Part shown: positions 33,968 through 40,358 of the stretch, in pieces
How positions within the stretch are numbered: position 1 is the first letter of the stretch
Layout: each line of letters begins with the position of its first letter
Source: Anaerolineae bacterium
GTDB taxonomy: Bacteria; Chloroflexota; Anaerolineae; Caldilineales; Caldilineaceae
Reading direction: 5' to 3'
NCBI GenBank assembly: GCA_030432295.1
Contig: JAUIHI010000007.1
Span: forward strand, 124,001 to 188,000
Length of the DNA: 64,000 nucleotides
The notes under the pieces: generated by a model
The model's database searches: none
What the model saw: the letters and a program-made list of their open reading frames with translations, nothing else
What the model was told of the DNA's origin: nothing
Made by a program: the position numbers and the translations under genes

Positions 33968-34444
33968 TCACTCCGGGGCAAAGAGCAGGCGAAAACGGAC
34001 ACAGACCAGCGGCATTGTCTCTTCGGGCTGGCGTCCCAGGAGGGTACATTCGTGGGCGTAATAGCCTCCCAATGCACGCTGCCACCAGGCCAGGGAGCGG
34101 TCACCTTCGCCGTAGTCATAAGCAAAGGCTTCGTCGATGGCGTTGAAGGGACGAATGGCTACTTCGGTAATTTCGGTCACACAGAGCGGTTCGCCCTGGC
34201 CGTCGATAGTCACCTCCACATCGCCGACAACCGGCAGGGGATCGCCGCTGGCCTCGTACTCCCAGAGCAGGCCGCTGGTAACCGTCTTTACACCGTACTG
34301 CACCAGACGACCTAACGCATCGGCCATTTCAGGTGAACTACCGTAGCCGTCCACCAAGTCAGGCCAGGGATGGCCTTGGGCCGCGTCCGGGTTGGCGGCG
34401 AGATAGGCTTGCCAGAAGGCGGCGACGGCAGGTGTGAGTTCCAT
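33968..34444 (-). CDS. ASCH-domain protein
   Basis: A 158-residue protein with the ASCH (PUA-like RNA-binding) pattern: 'YGVKTVTSGLLWEYEASGDPLPVVGDVEVTIDGQGEPLCVTEITEVAIRPFNAID' (the G-K-T/K-T-S-L--y and 'v-d--g-p-ciiet' motifs), then 'EFAYDYGEGDRSLAWWQRAL' style and 'FRLLFAPE'. ASCH proteins are thought to act on RNA or as coactivators; some are ribonucleases. Four bases separate it from the deacetylase gene, so they are likely one transcript. Confidence 0.85.
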   Translation of the reverse strand: MELTPAVAAFWQAYLAANPDAAQGHPWPDLVDGYGSSPEMADALGRLVQYGVKTVTSGLLWEYEASGDPLPVVGDVEVTIDGQGEPLCVTEITEVAIRPFNAIDEAFAYDYGEGDRSLAWWQRALGGYYAHECTLLGRQPEETMPLVCVRFRLLFAPE

Positions 34445-34446
34445 AA

Positions 34447-34533
34447 TTATTTTGTGTAGGGTTGAATCGTTCGCAAACCGGGGATAAAAGCGTAGTGCTT
34501 TTGGTTGAAGTTATTGCTGTCGACGAGTATCAT
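34447..34533 (-). pseudogene. Internally deleted vapC (PIN toxin) remnant
   Basis: A 28-codon frame 'MILVDSNNFNQKHYAFIPGL...'. The first residues 'MILVDSN' are the start of a PIN toxin (first acidic Asp5); then it jumps straight to 'HYAFIPGLRTIQPY', which matches the end of VapC proteins. About 100 codons are missing in between. It starts 11 bp after the stop of the VapB-like gene, as a vapC would. Toxin activity must be lost. Confidence 0.72.
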
Positions 34534-34544
34534 TCTTGAATCAC

Positions 34545-34856
34545 TCAGCGCTGTTCTGCCTGCTGGCGCAACTCTCGCGCGTAAATAGAGCTGTCGCTGA
34601 TGTCAGTTCTGTCCCGCCACATACCCAGCAGACCGGAACGGCGTATATCCCCTATGGTCAGACGAGCGATCGGTGCTGAATTGGTGGGTTGGGTTTGCCC
34701 AGCAATTGACGCAGGCTGTCCTGGGTGTATTAGGGTTCCGGGAATCGGTGTTTCGCTACCTTTGTCCAATTTTTTTTGCCCCACTAATTCTATGCGCATC
34801 TCAACTTTGTGATGACTATCGGCAAAAGCGTCCATCTGAACGATTTTAGACGTCAA
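34545..34856 (-). CDS. VapB-like antitoxin left without an intact toxin
   Basis: A 103-residue protein. The C-terminal 'LTIGDIRRSGLLGMWRDRTDISDSSIYARELRQQAEQR' is the toxin-binding end typical of VapB-like antitoxins. The first 75 residues are Ser/Pro/Thr-rich and lack an obvious DNA-binding domain, so the N-terminus may have been rebuilt. The ATG overlaps the ABC-3C ATPase 3' end by 11 bp, which would couple it to that operon. The partner toxin downstream is reduced to 28 codons. Confidence 0.7.
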   Translation of the reverse strand: MTSKIVQMDAFADSHHKVEMRIELVGQKKLDKGSETPIPGTLIHPGQPASIAGQTQPTNSAPIARLTIGDIRRSGLLGMWRDRTDISDSSIYARELRQQAEQR

Positions 34857-36687
34857 GCAAGCGGTTTGATTGTGTCAAAGCAATCTTAGCAGGTGGTAAA
34901 AACTCGAAGTTTTCATTGACGACTACGAAAAGTTGAAATACTTCACCGTAAATCTCCTCCAATTGAGCGAACTGTCGAAGGACTGTCTCATATGATTCCC
35001 TGGCAAGATTATCTTGAAGTAAAGTGTCAATGACCATAAAACTAGGAATGTAAGAGGGCGATTCCAAAGAAAAGCGCAGGAGGGCATAAAAATACCCCAA
35101 TATAGCTATGTTTTTCTCTGTTGCACTTTTTGCCTTGTAATTATAGCCGTCAATTTTCGGTAAATAAGCATCATCGATCTGTGTCTCTGTCTCTGGGAAA
35201 AATTGAGCGTAGAATTGCTGAAAAAACTGCTTGAACGAGAGAAGCTTGTATTCCGCTTGTCTTTCTTGTTCGGCAATTTCTTGTTTTTGCTTCCGTATAT
35301 CCATTAACCTTTGCTGGATGTCTTGTAGAGATTCTTGCATCTTCTGAATCTGCGAACGCCATCGAGACTGCATGCGTAGTTGATTTTTCTCACTATCCAA
35401 TTTGGTCAGCGTTTGATTGAGGAGAACGATATTGCTTATTGCTGGTGAAACAAGTTCTGCCATCATCTCATCGAGAGATTGCCGCTTCTGATTCAGTTCG
35501 TTTTCAATTTGGAATAGGTTGCTGCGAATTCGTTCAATAGTTGATTCGTAGCGTTCTTGTAGTTCAGTGAGTTCTTCGAGTTGTGATTCAATTTGTTCTT
35601 CGTATAAATTCAGATCACCTATATTATCGGTATGTTCTGCCAGCGGACGTCCACAAACGCTGCAGATCGATTCAAGTTCCTTCATTTTCATTTCATCAGT
35701 TATGACCTGAAGGCATCGTGGACATTGTTCGAATTCAAACGAAGCCATTTGATTCACGGACGCTCGCACTCTGGTTGCTTTATCTAAGTCTTCGGCTAAC
35801 TGATTGTCCAACTCTCTATATGACTGCAATGTCTGAGTAGAAAAGTATAATTCTTGCTTTTGATTGGCTACGGTTTCTTCCAATGAAACGACTTCATCGC
35901 GCAAAGGGTTCGCGTAACTTGATGAAGCTTGTATATGTTGCTGAATTGTTGCCAGTTGATTTTCAATCTGCAAATACTCCTCATCAATTTGGCGTAGGCG
36001 GGCATTAATTTCGCTGGGATGGAGAATTTCTACCTCGCCCAGGAACCGATTTAGGTATTCAATCTCCTGCTCTCCCTCTTTCCTTCTTTTCAACAATTCA
36101 TCTTCTTTGACGAGGGTATCATAAAAATTTGGCGCACTTATACCTGTCAATAGCTTGAATAACGGGGCGCGATCTTTGTCAGAAAGGTTTGCTTGGATTT
36201 TCGAAAACCCCTTTGCCTGATCAATATGCAAACTGTCGTATACATCATTAAAACTGATGGATTTTTCACGGCCATACTCATCGATGACGCTTACTATAGG
36301 AATGCCGAGTCGCTGCAATAAAAAATCAGACATTTCGCCGCGAAGCAATGTGGTTGTAGGTAGAAATATGTCATCAACTCTACCAGAATAGACGACTAAT
36401 TCTTGTGAACCATAAAACTTACGATCAATCGTGTATGGAGTTCCATTAATTTCTACTTCCAGTACAAGCTTTTCACATTCGCTTATCTCAGGAATGAAAT
36501 CCCGAATATTGAGGTTTGCACCCAGTCCGAACTCAAAGAGTTTAAGCAGTGTCGTGCGTCCCGTGCTGTTCTCGCCGCGAATAACATTTAGTCCCTTACT
36601 GAATTTGGTTGCCGGCAAAGCAAGCCCACCACCTTTGCGGCTTACGCGGATTTCTGTGATCACCAAGTTGGGAGAATTTTCATTCAT
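34846..36687 (-). CDS. ABC-3C system SMC/Rad50-like ATPase with Arg in Walker A
   Basis: A 613-residue ATPase. Head N-half: 'ITEIRVSRKGGGLALPATKFSKGLNVIRGENSTGRTTLLKL'; the P-loop (38-46) reads GENSTGRTT, with Arg44 where Lys is expected. Coiled coil about 195-320 and 355-480, interrupted by 'CPRC' (322-325) and 'CSVC' (342-345), a probable zinc knuckle. Head C-half: 'KSATEKNIAILGYFYALL' (signature-like, 520-537) and 'FMVIDTLLQDN' (Walker B Asp554, no following Glu). Composition is AT-richer than the flanks. It overlaps the middle-component gene by 8 bp; predicted to be the sensor/motor of an antiphage system. Confidence 0.85.
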   Translation of the reverse strand: MNENSPNLVITEIRVSRKGGGLALPATKFSKGLNVIRGENSTGRTTLLKLFEFGLGANLNIRDFIPEISECEKLVLEVEINGTPYTIDRKFYGSQELVVYSGRVDDIFLPTTTLLRGEMSDFLLQRLGIPIVSVIDEYGREKSISFNDVYDSLHIDQAKGFSKIQANLSDKDRAPLFKLLTGISAPNFYDTLVKEDELLKRRKEGEQEIEYLNRFLGEVEILHPSEINARLRQIDEEYLQIENQLATIQQHIQASSSYANPLRDEVVSLEETVANQKQELYFSTQTLQSYRELDNQLAEDLDKATRVRASVNQMASFEFEQCPRCLQVITDEMKMKELESICSVCGRPLAEHTDNIGDLNLYEEQIESQLEELTELQERYESTIERIRSNLFQIENELNQKRQSLDEMMAELVSPAISNIVLLNQTLTKLDSEKNQLRMQSRWRSQIQKMQESLQDIQQRLMDIRKQKQEIAEQERQAEYKLLSFKQFFQQFYAQFFPETETQIDDAYLPKIDGYNYKAKSATEKNIAILGYFYALLRFSLESPSYIPSFMVIDTLLQDNLARESYETVLRQFAQLEEIYGEVFQLFVVVNENFEFLPPAKIALTQSNRLLDV

Positions 36688-37321
36688 ACTTTTGCTCTTG
36701 TTTTGTAACAGGAATTATTTGCCGTTGTGGTAATCTCACAACTTCAGGAAAGTGGCGGTAGATAAAATCCTTTATCTCACTTCCTAAAAGATCACCAAAT
36801 AACTTCTTGACGATACGGCAACGCTCAACCAGTACCGAAAATTCTTGCTGCTCGCTCAGTTTTCCAGCGAGTTGAACTCCTGCTTCGGTCAACAGGAAAC
36901 TATCCATATTTCTTTTCTGTTGAACTGCGATTAAGCTTTTGCCACTCAAGTACGCAAGCACAAGATAATATTTCTGATCCCACGGTCCATACCTGTAGCG
37001 AATCATTTGGGACTCAATAGTAGGACTTACTTGGATAATCTTCTTGATTTCTTCTACAACAGTTTGCTTGCCTTCTATTTCCGCCGCTCTTAGCAAATAC
37101 GTTGGATAGCGCACAAAAAAGTCTAGCTTGGCAAGTTTTGTGCGTCCGTCAATTCCGGGCTTTCCAGCCCAGTTAATGAGTAATATCAGCCGTGTTGCGT
37201 GGAATGGGATGTTATCGTCGAGAAGAAACAAAGACGCGGGGGGACGATTCGTGGTTGCCCCAAATTTGTTGGCTGAATCCAGTAATTTTTTAGGTGCGCT
37301 TGGAGGGTGTGGGTGGGTCAT
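36680..37321 (-). CDS. ABC-3C system middle component
   Basis: A 213-residue protein. The core 'FHATRLILLINWAGKPGIDGRTKLAKLDFFVRYPTYLLRAAE' (about 53-95) is the pattern of ABC-three-component middle components: a winged-helix-like unit with 'L--LDF--RYP--L'. Then 'IESQMIRYRYGPWDQKYYLVLAYLSGKSLIAVQQ' continues as a small helical domain. It is thought to link ATPase and effector. Four-base overlap with the effector gene and eight-base overlap with the ATPase gene make a tight operon. Confidence 0.82.
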   Translation of the reverse strand: MTHPHPPSAPKKLLDSANKFGATTNRPPASLFLLDDNIPFHATRLILLINWAGKPGIDGRTKLAKLDFFVRYPTYLLRAAEIEGKQTVVEEIKKIIQVSPTIESQMIRYRYGPWDQKYYLVLAYLSGKSLIAVQQKRNMDSFLLTEAGVQLAGKLSEQQEFSVLVERCRIVKKLFGDLLGSEIKDFIYRHFPEVVRLPQRQIIPVTKQEQKYE

Positions 37322-38595
37322 TTCGAGTTATTCCAACAGTGCCATTCGTAATGGCATTCTGCCGTAAGTTGACACATCATTCCATGTAAATATTCCCGAT
37401 CGACATCATCAACTGGAACATTTTTGCGTTGCTGTTGGTCTGCTAGTTTCTCCAATTCATTTAGGATAGCTGCGTAGGTTTGCCCAATTTCACCACCATT
37501 CATCACTGTGTTGCGATGGCAAATGCCCCAAACTAAGTGGCGCAACTCTGCGATATATGAAGCAGCATAGCTTTGCTGCTGTCTAAATTTAATTGCAAAG
37601 AAATTCCTGCTGCTTATGAAATACTCTACAGCTTTTGGATCAATACTATTTAGTTTTTTAGTTTTCTGGCGTAAAGTACGCCTTTGTGGCTCGTCGTGTT
37701 TTTCATCAAGTACAAATTGAGTCAAATGTGCATCGATAAATGGACCAGAAATACATATCTCTATGTTGTGCGGTCTGACTTTTCGTAGCTCAATAGATTC
37801 CGCAGACGTCGCAGTAGCTGGTGGCTTCACACTTTTTCTCAAAGAATTTATGATTTCCTCATAAATTCTCGCTAAATTTGCACTATCAGCATTAATGCCA
37901 CGCATTTCTAATATCTTTTGAAGTTTACGAATATTGTTAGATTCCAAACCTGATTCACGATTATAATCGGTCAAAATACGAATATTCCAGAAAAAAGCTT
38001 CTGTTTCTGTGAGATTATTGAAACTCCAGTCCTTATCAAGTCTTGAAAGTAGAGTGTCAACACTGCTTCTATCCTTTGCATTCTGGTTACAAATTTTTTC
38101 TCCTTGAAACGTCAGTTTTTTCATATATCCTAAATCTGGAATGCGATTTCTCTTCCCCCTAGCAGACGAAAACTTATTTGTTTGGTCACTAACAAACCAA
38201 AACGAATTATTAGGTCCAAATGCATCCCTTAACTTGATGAAGTTCGTCCAGACATTACGGGACTTCAAGTCACTCAGATTCCATTGCTCAGTGGCTCGTT
38301 GTTTAACTTGATAGAATTCGTACGTGCCATTTTTTAGCCGAACGACAACATCTTCGTGGGTTTCAGATGAGACAAACTCGTATTTATCTGGATATTCCAG
38401 CATTTCTAAGCATTTTTGGGCCGCAAAGTGAAACTGGTAATCAAAACCGGAAACGGCAATTGCACCACCGTCATTGTCTTGGCGAATATCTTCTAAGTTG
38501 GGAATTGATTGTGGCTGGTGGCTTTGATTTGACATTGAGGTGGACCGAATCATCTGATATTGAAAAGAATTCTCTGAGTTTAGAGTATCATTCAT
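37318..38595 (-). CDS. ABC-3C system effector with DUF4297-like nuclease domain
   Basis: A 425-residue protein. Residues 40-100, 'DNDGGAIAVSGFDYQFHFAAQKCLEMLE' then 'YEFVSSETHEDVVVRLKNGTYEFYQVKQR', match DUF4297/Cap4-type dsDNA endonucleases: G-F-x-Y-Q helix, E-D (81-82) and Q-x-K (96-98) as the PD-(D/E)xK core. The C-terminal part (290-425, 'QTYAAILNELEKLADQQQRKNVPVDDVDREYLHGMMCQL') would contact the middle component. Predicted to cleave DNA when the ATPase senses infection (inference). First gene of the island operon; AT-rich codon use suggests acquisition. Confidence 0.83.
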   Translation of the reverse strand: MNDTLNSENSFQYQMIRSTSMSNQSHQPQSIPNLEDIRQDNDGGAIAVSGFDYQFHFAAQKCLEMLEYPDKYEFVSSETHEDVVVRLKNGTYEFYQVKQRATEQWNLSDLKSRNVWTNFIKLRDAFGPNNSFWFVSDQTNKFSSARGKRNRIPDLGYMKKLTFQGEKICNQNAKDRSSVDTLLSRLDKDWSFNNLTETEAFFWNIRILTDYNRESGLESNNIRKLQKILEMRGINADSANLARIYEEIINSLRKSVKPPATATSAESIELRKVRPHNIEICISGPFIDAHLTQFVLDEKHDEPQRRTLRQKTKKLNSIDPKAVEYFISSRNFFAIKFRQQQSYAASYIAELRHLVWGICHRNTVMNGGEIGQTYAAILNELEKLADQQQRKNVPVDDVDREYLHGMMCQLTAECHYEWHCWNNSK

Positions 38596-38620
38596 CGCTT
38601 TGTCACCAGAAAGTAGGTCA

Positions 38621-38650
38621 ATTGTAATTCAACTCTTCATTCAACGTCAA
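38621..38650 (-). promoter_or_regulatory. Putative promoter of the ABC-3C operon
   Basis: On the minus strand TTGACG (38650-38645), 18-bp spacer, TACAAT (38626-38621), 26 bp before the start codon. Upstream, tactcta occurs twice around tcga (38674-38691), a possible operator. Confidence 0.55.
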
Positions 38651-38693
38651 ACGAACTTAATCTTCACGACTGCTGTACTCTATCGATACTCTA

Positions 38694-40358
38694 TTACGCG
38701 GAAAAACGCGGACGAAAGAGCCACCCGCCATCGCCCCGAAAGCGCAGGTCGAAGTCGTCTTCCCCCGCGCCCAGCACTTGCAGACGGCTGTGACGCTGCA
38801 CTGGCCCGGCGAAGTCCACGTCCAGGGGCGCGGTCGTCTCTGCTTTCCCGCTGGGACCGGATGTGCGGGCCACGTGAAGAGTCTCCCCGTCCCACAGGAG
38901 AGTGACGCCGCCGTCGCCAACGGGCAAATCCACCAGCGCCCACCAGCCCCAGTCGTCGGGCCAGGCGCGGGCAAGGGTGAGGGTGTCCCCCAGCCAGGAG
39001 ATATTGGATATTGGGGATTGGGTATTAGAGATTGGCGCGTCGGGATCATCAATCTCTACTCTCCAATCCCCAATCGCATATTCCGCTTCGCCTTCCCAGC
39101 GGGCTTCGTTTACGCTGTCATCCGATGCGCGGGCGAGTTGGGCCGCTGCTTGCAGGGCCGCGGCAAAGTCGGCCAGGGCTGGGGGCTGATCGGTCAGTTC
39201 GTGGCGGGCGCGGATGAGTGCTTCGGCGCAGAGGCGTACAACGGGGTAGTGTTCGGCCAGGGAGAAATCGTGGGGTTGGCGGCGCAGGTGGCCGGCCAGC
39301 GCGGTCAGATAGGCCCGATTGCTGCGGGTAAGGGCGGTAGCGTCGGATTGGCTCTCCACATAAAAGGGTGGGAAGGCGGGGGGCAACTGTCCGCTGCCCT
39401 TCTCGGCCAGACGACGCAGGTGGTCCAGCAGGGAACGGCTGCGGGCTGGCTCGCAGAGGTCGAAGGCTTCTAGCAGCGGGGGAACCGACGCCAGCAGTCC
39501 ATCAGCGGGCGCGTCACCCCCGCGCAAACGCACAAGCTGGCGGGCCGCGTTCTGCTTGGCCTGGTCCAGCGCCCGATTGACTGTCGGGTCTGGCGTCCAC
39601 AGGCGGCCCCGCTGGGTGATGCGCCCCCAGACATTCTGGGTGAGATTGAAAGCCCGTTCGATGTCCCGCTGGGCCAGAAAGCCGTTCCAGGCCATCTGCT
39701 CTCCCACTTCGCTGAGCGTCAGAATCAGGGGCAGGTCCACCTGGCCCGCCACCAGCACGTGATAGAGCAGGTGGGCGCGGGATTCGTCGGGAAAGGAGAC
39801 CAGATCGGGCCGCCCCTCCGCCGCACCAAAGACCCGGGTACTCTCCGCGTTCTGCTGCTCGTGGACGCCCCGTGCCTGGCCGGGAAGGCTCTGGGCGACC
39901 AGCAGGCCATCTACCATCCGCTGCTCCAGCGGCTCGCCCCAGTCAATCTCCACGGCGATTTGCAGCAGCCGGTCCCCCTCGGCCTGACACTCCAACTGCC
40001 AGAGGACCGAGCGGTCGTCGTTGCTGCCCATCGGCGCGTAGGTGCGCTTGCTGACGATCACTCCTTCCGTGCCGTAGATCGTCTCCTGGTAGCCGGGGAA
40101 AAAACGCACAGCCAGGGGCAGCACATCCTCCACCGATTCGGCGCTGATGCCTTTGCTGGTGTAGATGGGCGCTGCGATGGAAAGGGTGATGGAGCGGGCA
40201 TAGGGCCGGTTCTGGCGGGGAAAGTCCAGGTCGTGGAGGTCGCTGTTGCGGTCGCTCTGATAGCGCACATCCGGGTTGGCGCGCAGAAAACGGGCCGCGG
40301 GGTCGATGTCGTCGTAGTCGAAGGTGTCCGGGCGGTCGAGGATGGGGCTGATATTCAC
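38694..40358 (-). CDS. Large protein of unknown function, coupled to the ABC importer
   Basis: A 554-residue protein starting at a GTG (40358) that overlaps the ABC ATPase stop by 4 bp (GTGA). The N-half is beta-rich ('ARSITLSIAAPIYTSKGISAESVEDVLPLAVRFFPGYQETIYGTEGVIVSKR'); the middle is helical and resembles an alpha-barrel glycosidase-like region ('NLTQNVWGRITQRGRLWTPDPTVNRALDQAKQNAARQLVRL'). A segment near 465-495 ('PDAPISNTQSPISNISW') is encoded by a heptamer inverted repeat (39001-39083). No signal peptide. Function is not known; possible sugar or nucleoside processing is only suggested by context. Confidence 0.72.
   Translation of the reverse strand: MNISPILDRPDTFDYDDIDPAARFLRANPDVRYQSDRNSDLHDLDFPRQNRPYARSITLSIAAPIYTSKGISAESVEDVLPLAVRFFPGYQETIYGTEGVIVSKRTYAPMGSNDDRSVLWQLECQAEGDRLLQIAVEIDWGEPLEQRMVDGLLVAQSLPGQARGVHEQQNAESTRVFGAAEGRPDLVSFPDESRAHLLYHVLVAGQVDLPLILTLSEVGEQMAWNGFLAQRDIERAFNLTQNVWGRITQRGRLWTPDPTVNRALDQAKQNAARQLVRLRGGDAPADGLLASVPPLLEAFDLCEPARSRSLLDHLRRLAEKGSGQLPPAFPPFYVESQSDATALTRSNRAYLTALAGHLRRQPHDFSLAEHYPVVRLCAEALIRARHELTDQPPALADFAAALQAAAQLARASDDSVNEARWEGEAEYAIGDWRVEIDDPDAPISNTQSPISNISWLGDTLTLARAWPDDWGWWALVDLPVGDGGVTLLWDGETLHVARTSGPSGKAETTAPLDVDFAGPVQRHSRLQVLGAGEDDFDLRFRGDGGWLFRPRFSA
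39001..39083. repeat. Heptamer-periodic inverted repeat inside the 38694 gene
   Basis: Left arm: atattgg/ggattgg/gtattag/agattgg units (39001-39034). Right arm: caatctct actctccaatcccc (39049-39074). Same design as at the purE-purK junction; here it is wholly within a reading frame, adding about 28 residues. Confidence 0.82.

Follow-up and report, generated by a model that had tools for sequence, protein, structure and literature searches.

Lamassu systems form a superfamily that takes in Lamassu types I and II, Lamassu-like systems, ABC-three-component (ABC-3C) systems and DdmABC (PMC10586767), of which DdmABC fits the ABC-3C description and has since been assigned to type II Lamassu (PMC12409362). 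On activation, the effector LmuA is freed and forms a tetramer, whereby its Cap4 domain is activated (PMC12409362), and oligomerization is also given as the step that activates Lamassu effectors in another source (PMC12799240). DNA ends and hairpins are listed as the structures sensed (PMC12904381), and the ATPase LmuB is described as generally carrying a Glu-to-Gln change in Walker B, with little or no ATP hydrolysis suspected (PMC10586767). Here, we describe a three-gene operon, lmuA-lmuC-lmuB, on the minus strand of a 64,000-nucleotide stretch of an Anaerolineae genome (the window; contig JAUIHI010000007.1, positions 124,001 to 188,000). Judged by the sequences of its members, it is a well-supported candidate Lamassu-type (ABC-3C) defence system, and its LmuB has neither the lysine of Walker A nor the glutamate of Walker B. 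In window coordinates, its elements are:

37318-38595, minus strand: lmuA, Cap4-type double-stranded DNA nuclease effector with a C-terminal domain, 425 residues (PF14130, PADLOC LmuA)
38302-38364, minus strand: LmuA nuclease motif E78...D82...Q96-V-K98 (alignment)
36680-37321, minus strand: lmuC, middle component with a winged-helix fold, 213 residues (PADLOC LmuC, predicted structure)
37103-37138, minus strand: LmuC KLAKLDFFVRYP core, residues 62-73 (alignment)
36977-36991, minus strand: LmuC YGPWD motif, residues 111-115 (alignment)
34846-36687, minus strand: lmuB, Rad50/SMC-like ATPase, 613 residues (PADLOC LmuB, fold match)
36550-36576, minus strand: LmuB Walker A loop GENSTGRTT, residues 38-46, with Arg44 (codon CGC at 36556-36558) in place of the usual Lys (alignment)
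35653-35724, minus strand: LmuB zinc-hook cysteines C322, C325, C342 and C345 (alignment)
35023-35040, minus strand: LmuB Walker B FMVIDT, residues 550-555, with Thr555 in place of the Rad50-type catalytic Glu (alignment)

All three open reading frames (ORFs) are intact and overlap by 4 bp (lmuA/lmuC) and 8 bp (lmuC/lmuB), just as an earlier examination of the letters alone (the sequence-only reading) had placed them at 34846-38595. Its gene identities, a Cap4-like nuclease, a middle component and an SMC/Rad50-like ATPase, agree with the PADLOC matches to LmuA, LmuC and LmuB, and the effector - middle component - ATPase order that it took as that of ABC-3C systems is indeed present. As one superfamily holds both ABC-3C and type II Lamassu, the ABC-3C label of that reading was right, under what is an older name for type II (Cap4) Lamassu. 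Of the two outcomes that would have refuted the reading, a middle component without any profile match and conservation of the genes in place among all relatives with ordinary composition, neither is seen. The altered ATPase site of LmuB did not figure in that account. The NCBIfam library yielded nothing above a curated cut-off. The solved type II Lamassu/DdmABC complexes (9hqu and 9hqx, Salmonella LmuACB; 9uxh; 9ny5, LmuABC) share with our operon a Cap4 LmuA, a small middle component and a Rad50-like LmuB, as well as the gene order. That order is common to ABC-3C systems as well, whose middle components appear in Pfam or NCBI records as MC2, MC4 or MC5; some middle components related to ours match MC4 or MC2, and plasmid relatives of the system are annotated by NCBI as ABC-three component.

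LmuB itself matches the PADLOC LmuB profile PDLC03862 at 1.9e-67 over residues 27-586, and a profile of 30 LmuB sequences finds Lamassu LmuB chains as its best solved matches (9hqu_A, 8.4e-23; 9ux7_A, 2.9e-18). Its predicted structure (mean predicted local distance difference test score, pLDDT, 86) has type II Lamassu 9uxh_F as best fold match (E 1.8e-17, TM-score 0.43), and six of the seven top fold matches are solved Lamassu chains, the second (9a6c_A) not being labelled as Lamassu. All four zinc-hook cysteines are kept in 80 of 85 LmuB sequences. Wadjet, tried as another assignment, was rejected: the locus has three genes and no JetABCD four-gene set, the best profiles are those of Lmu proteins, and the PADLOC JetC models cover inner stretches of LmuB only (residues about 194-520).

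How unusual is the nucleotide site of this LmuB? We aligned 104 LmuB proteins (102 distinct, with two exact duplicates), a sample drawn around our own LmuC subfamily plus some plasmid relatives and not a census; the tally comprises 85 related loci and plasmid regions, four of the latter's 19 (L062, L069, L177 and L180; loci are numbered L, genomes G) having been left out as interrupted, partial or unannotated. Three proteins were unreadable at one of the two sites (L076, L122 and L133), leaving 101 readable at both. At the Walker A position, Lys stands in 99 of 103 readable sequences, L076 being the unreadable one, and Arg in four, namely the window's R44, L071, L072 and L074. Among the 101, Lys without the Walker B Glu is found in 97 (mostly with Ser, Asn, Phe, Gly or Thr instead), Arg with Glu in three, all from metagenome-assembled genomes (MAGs) of Anaerolineales (L071, L072 and L074), and Arg with Thr in the window's system alone; the pair Lys and Glu occurs in none (0/101). 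An SbcC-like protein encoded near the related Lys-bearing system L090, aligned into the set as a control, shows both Lys and Glu, indicating that the Walker A and B columns are correctly placed. Lys without Glu is likewise the state of the four solved LmuB sequences, with Gln in 9hqu, 9uxl and 9ny5 and Ser in 9ux7 (read from alignments). Solved type II Lamassu and the window's system are thus alike in missing the Walker B Glu and differ in that ours has Arg44 for the Walker A Lys and Thr at the Walker B position. Titles and abstract openings of the literature surveyed report no Walker A variants in Lamassu, and an earlier description elsewhere is possible.

The three Anaerolineales systems resemble ours in the Walker A Arg, in a related LmuC (41-46% identical to our own), in a Cap4 LmuA (L072, L074) and in PADLOC LmuB matches (L071, L074). 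They differ in that the Walker B Glu is still present and the second glycine of the P-loop is gone (DRT or YRT), and their LmuB proteins are about 24% identical to ours, in which the remaining P-loop residues G38, G43 and T45 are kept. Between L071 and L072, LmuB is 73% identical, with a nonsynonymous divergence (dN) of 0.18 and saturated synonymous change, which indicates that the Arg-type LmuB is under selection there. As the Arg-with-Glu state comes from one clade only, it counts as one event, not three. The Arg codons are CGC in the window, AGA in L071 and CGA in L072 and L074, and the window's CGC shares no base, position by position, with either Lys codon. In a tree made without the Walker A columns and built on divergent sequences, the five Chloroflexota systems form a clade (support 98/95), within which the window's LmuB, itself a long branch of 1.66 changes per column, pairs with L090 (support 95/91), which has Lys with Ser at the Walker B position; it is about 24-27% identical to its four nearest relatives, with L090 at 26.6%. 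Two origins of the Arg state, or one with reversion, fit best. Constraining all Arg types to a single clade was not rejected (approximately unbiased test, p-AU 0.091), a result compatible with descent from one ancestral Arg lineage without establishing it.

LmuA matches the Pfam family Cap4_nuclease (PF14130) at E 4.9e-18, above the family cut-off, and PADLOC LmuA (PDLC03848) at 1e-23 over residues 41-419; E78, D82 and K98 are invariant in 5/5 aligned LmuA proteins, and of 83 LmuA ORFs, 58 fit a regular expression written for the nuclease motif, the remainder including truncated or wrongly started ones. Its N-terminal part (residues 39-268) also matches PADLOC HamA of Hachiman at 3.5e-14, but the LmuA model scores better, and whereas the Hachiman partner HamB is a helicase, the partner genes here are LmuC and LmuB and no helicase. 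The same nuclease domain family, PF14130, links LmuA to the Cap4 effector of cyclic oligonucleotide-based antiphage signalling systems (CBASS), in which the Cap4 nuclease is used as an effector (PMC10586767); the PADLOC SAVED/PDDEXK models, however, match residues 40-128 of LmuA only, i.e. the nuclease part.

The middle component LmuC matches its PADLOC profile PDLC03872 at 1.9e-19. The 'KLDFFVRYP' core picked out in the sequence-only reading is real and conserved in 22/22 aligned middle components, in all of which K62, A64, K65, D67, F68, R71, Y72 and P73, as well as G112, P113, W114 and D115 of the YGPWD motif, are invariant. The predicted structure (mean pLDDT 86) has a winged-helix fold. 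It aligns with two small chains from solved Lamassu complexes, 9uxh_D (133 residues, Z 7.8, root-mean-square deviation 4.3) and 9ny5_C (137 residues, Z 7.6, root-mean-square deviation 5.0), which by their length (170-171 residues) we take for LmuC. Our LmuC subfamily differs from the solved systems in its TKLAKLDFxxRYP and YGPWD motifs; when it was compared with the solved chains, phmmer found nothing and profile matches were weak, with a best E of 0.08. Used by itself as a Foldseek query, the predicted LmuC had no match at E <= 0.001.

The operon is foreign to its surroundings in composition, as the sequence-only reading had noticed: its genes (39-44% GC) have guanine-cytosine (GC) contents of 0.389 (lmuA), 0.436 (lmuC) and 0.414 (lmuB) against 0.596 for the window without 34646-38693, i.e. 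60%. The Lamassu operon of L090, in another Chloroflexota genome (G716, of the same class), is GC-poor too, at 0.412 versus 0.613 in its surroundings. Comparison with the same-genus genome G005 delimits the inserted stretch:

34646-38694, no strand: stretch without a counterpart in G005, the maximum extent of the insertion (comparison with locus L048)

Window positions 34645 and 38695 match positions 2117 and 2384 of L048, so that about 4.0 kb here face 266 bp there. G005 thus shows the site without the operon, and relative to G005 the operon is an insertion. More generally, conservation of the three genes at this site is not seen in the same-genus genomes that allowed a comparison, and a BLAST search with LmuB over 61 genomes, some of them incomplete, found only our own, with no match in 6/6 same-genus, 30/30 same-family and 24/24 same-class genomes. 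With the LmuC profile, three genomes matched among 400 of the phylum and three among 396 of the class, own included; the overlapping sets of 396 (those of the class), 48 and 400 genomes held 3, 1 and 4 matching genomes, our own being in the first, and three of the four in the last set resemble L071, L072 and L074 by coordinates only.

With LmuB alone as query, no relatives were found in genome_contigs or viral_contigs and none among phages, while 24 plasmid records were. The conserved LmuC motifs served better as a query: in genome_contigs they picked out 253 related loci, the best 80 of which were used, and in the viral collection five. LmuB, whole or partial, follows LmuC in 85/85 of these loci, and a loose LmuA profile search placed an LmuA-like ORF just upstream of LmuC in 71/85, the remainder including truncated contigs and wrongly started ORFs. 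The PADLOC LmuB profile had matches in 73 of 100 genomes (E 0.001); all but the window's and that of G072 were partial, covering the head end or the coiled coil, and these partial ones were not counted as Lamassu. Some plasmid relatives seem to be interrupted, with insertion-sequence transposases lying within the L177 locus and LmuB annotated in pieces in L062. Near-identical Lamassu LmuB proteins are encoded in three viral-collection contigs and an Acidobacteriota MAG (L151, L152, L153 and L131), and the identity of LmuB between L131 and L153 suggests that a phage or prophage may carry that system. The window's system shows the sporadic distribution and mobility by which ABC-3C systems are recognized.

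What might this system do? We consider it to be a horizontally acquired type II (Cap4) Lamassu/ABC-3C system whose LmuB acts as a non-hydrolysing, one-way, DNA-gated switch, and put the probability of this at roughly 80%. Gene identities, gene order, motifs, patchy presence and residue states are read from the data; complex formation, activation, phage defence and the lack of hydrolysis are inferred. By analogy with the studied systems, a zinc-hooked LmuB dimer joined to LmuC would keep the LmuA nuclease inactive; LmuB would bind foreign DNA, invading or replicating, at its ends or at hairpin-like structures, LmuA would then be released, tetramerize and cut DNA, and the population would be protected through abortive infection. 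Since this copy still has its zinc-hook cysteines, its LmuC and the LmuA residues E78, D82 and K98, the known Lamassu layout is the best guess here. With the Walker A Lys and the Walker B Glu both missing, an ordinary ATP hydrolysis cycle is most likely absent, and LmuB may at most bind nucleotide; a bolder view is that it might do without nucleotide altogether.

Several observations weigh against this view. The putative ATP binding of LmuB is given as essential wherever tested (PMC10586767), so that the missing Walker A Lys could also mean weak or lost function, and another review has LmuA activated once LmuB has hydrolysed ATP (PMC12342005). On the side of the middle component, where ABC-3C systems have Pfam models, our LmuC matches none of Pfam at E 0.001, MC2 and MC4 included, whereas six of the 22 aligned middle components match MC4 and five MC2; the best fold match of its model is a DarTG chain (Z 10.1), above the Lamassu chains, whose Z of 7.6-7.8 lies within the range of common winged-helix matches. 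These Z values alone would not prove kinship to Lamassu, which follows from the PADLOC profile match and the gene order.

Could LmuB simply be broken? If the ATPase site had been lost by drift, the operon would be a decaying copy that no longer works, and the loss of both key catalytic residues from a protein on a long branch is what one would then expect to see. Yet the three ORFs are intact with their overlaps, nuclease motif and zinc-hook cysteines, Arg occupies the Walker A position in three other systems, two of which, when compared, show strong amino-acid constraint, and the Walker B Glu is missing in 97/97 Lys-bearing LmuB readable at both sites, so that its loss is normal for the family; decay therefore strikes us as improbable. 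A stronger contender, to which we give appreciable weight though somewhat short of even odds, is that the substitution is neutral, the Arg44 P-loop still binding ATP and clamping the LmuB heads with a mechanism as in other Lamassu. Exchange of Lys for Arg in P-loop enzymes often weakens nucleotide binding rather than abolishing it, G38, G43 and T45 are in place, and the sister system L090 keeps Lys at an LmuB identity of 26.6%. Against neutrality stands the retention of Lys in 99 of the 103 sequences, and the three Anaerolineales systems have, in addition, lost the Gly next to it, unlike what a neutral swap there would look like. As LmuB is distantly related to Rad50, one may finally think of an ABC-ATPase and nuclease module outside defence, serving for instance DNA repair or plasmid housekeeping; with its patchy presence, foreign composition, matches to all three PADLOC defence profiles and relatives on plasmids and in viral-collection contigs, this appears very improbable.

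Beyond the switch proposed for the window's system, one may speculate that selection acts against ATP hydrolysis by Lamassu LmuB, and that the non-hydrolysing state has been reached by two evolutionary routes: most lineages would have dropped the Walker B Glu while keeping Lys, a Chloroflexota lineage would have changed Lys to Arg while keeping Glu, and the window's system would have lost both. In that clade, the ABC head would work without nucleotide, as a DNA-gated clamp from which the nuclease is set free. We hold this generalization to be less likely than not.

The surroundings of the operon comprise two further features:

38621-38650, minus strand: candidate operon promoter TTGACG-18-TACAAT, read from 38650 to 38621 (sequence match, count not above chance)
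34545-34856, minus strand: antitoxin-like ORF without its toxin, directly next to lmuB and not part of the operon (similar to one antitoxin-like ORF in G005 and to two ORFs in G006)

The sequence-only reading had credited the block with its own candidate promoter; such a site does exist, but with eight promoter-like sites in the operon region against 8.7 expected from shuffled sequence, their number is at chance level and the candidate alone is no evidence. The ORF after lmuB was tried as a fourth Lamassu gene and rejected for its resemblance to the G005 antitoxin-like ORF and the two G006 ORFs, the matches spanning most of its length. Together with 34447-34533 it appears as a toxin-antitoxin remnant, the antitoxin-like ORF at 34545-34856 being intact and orphaned directly after lmuB, and about 300 bp of the toxin gene of G005 (L048 1619-2005) are missing from the window. 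A search of 34300-39000 for repeats that might mark where the insertion ends brought up none flanking it. Where the operon lies here, G005 has a PIN-like toxin with an antitoxin, and G003 and G006 have other PIN-like toxin ORFs with antitoxin-like partners at the same place, these names being given by sequence likeness, by eye. The differing pairs of the three same-genus genomes lie at L048 1619-2268, L049 1505-2240 and L050 736-1447, suggesting a small hotspot of conflict genes. A phosphotransferase-like gene is also found in L049 (2430-3377). An ASCH-domain protein (PF04266, 5e-18) at 33968-34444, between a histone-deacetylase-like gene and the antitoxin, is without counterpart in the aligned stretch of G005.

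For the biology of this Chloroflexota genus, the locus documents a Lamassu cassette inserted beside a toxin-antitoxin-like module at a variable chromosomal spot. For the family, it bears on a point where reviews differ, little or no ATP hydrolysis being suspected in one (PMC10586767) and activation following hydrolysis in the other (PMC12342005). Natural LmuB proteins that lack the Walker A Lys in addition to the Walker B Glu, along with those that combine Arg with Glu, are test cases for whether hydrolysis, ATP binding or neither is needed to free the nuclease.

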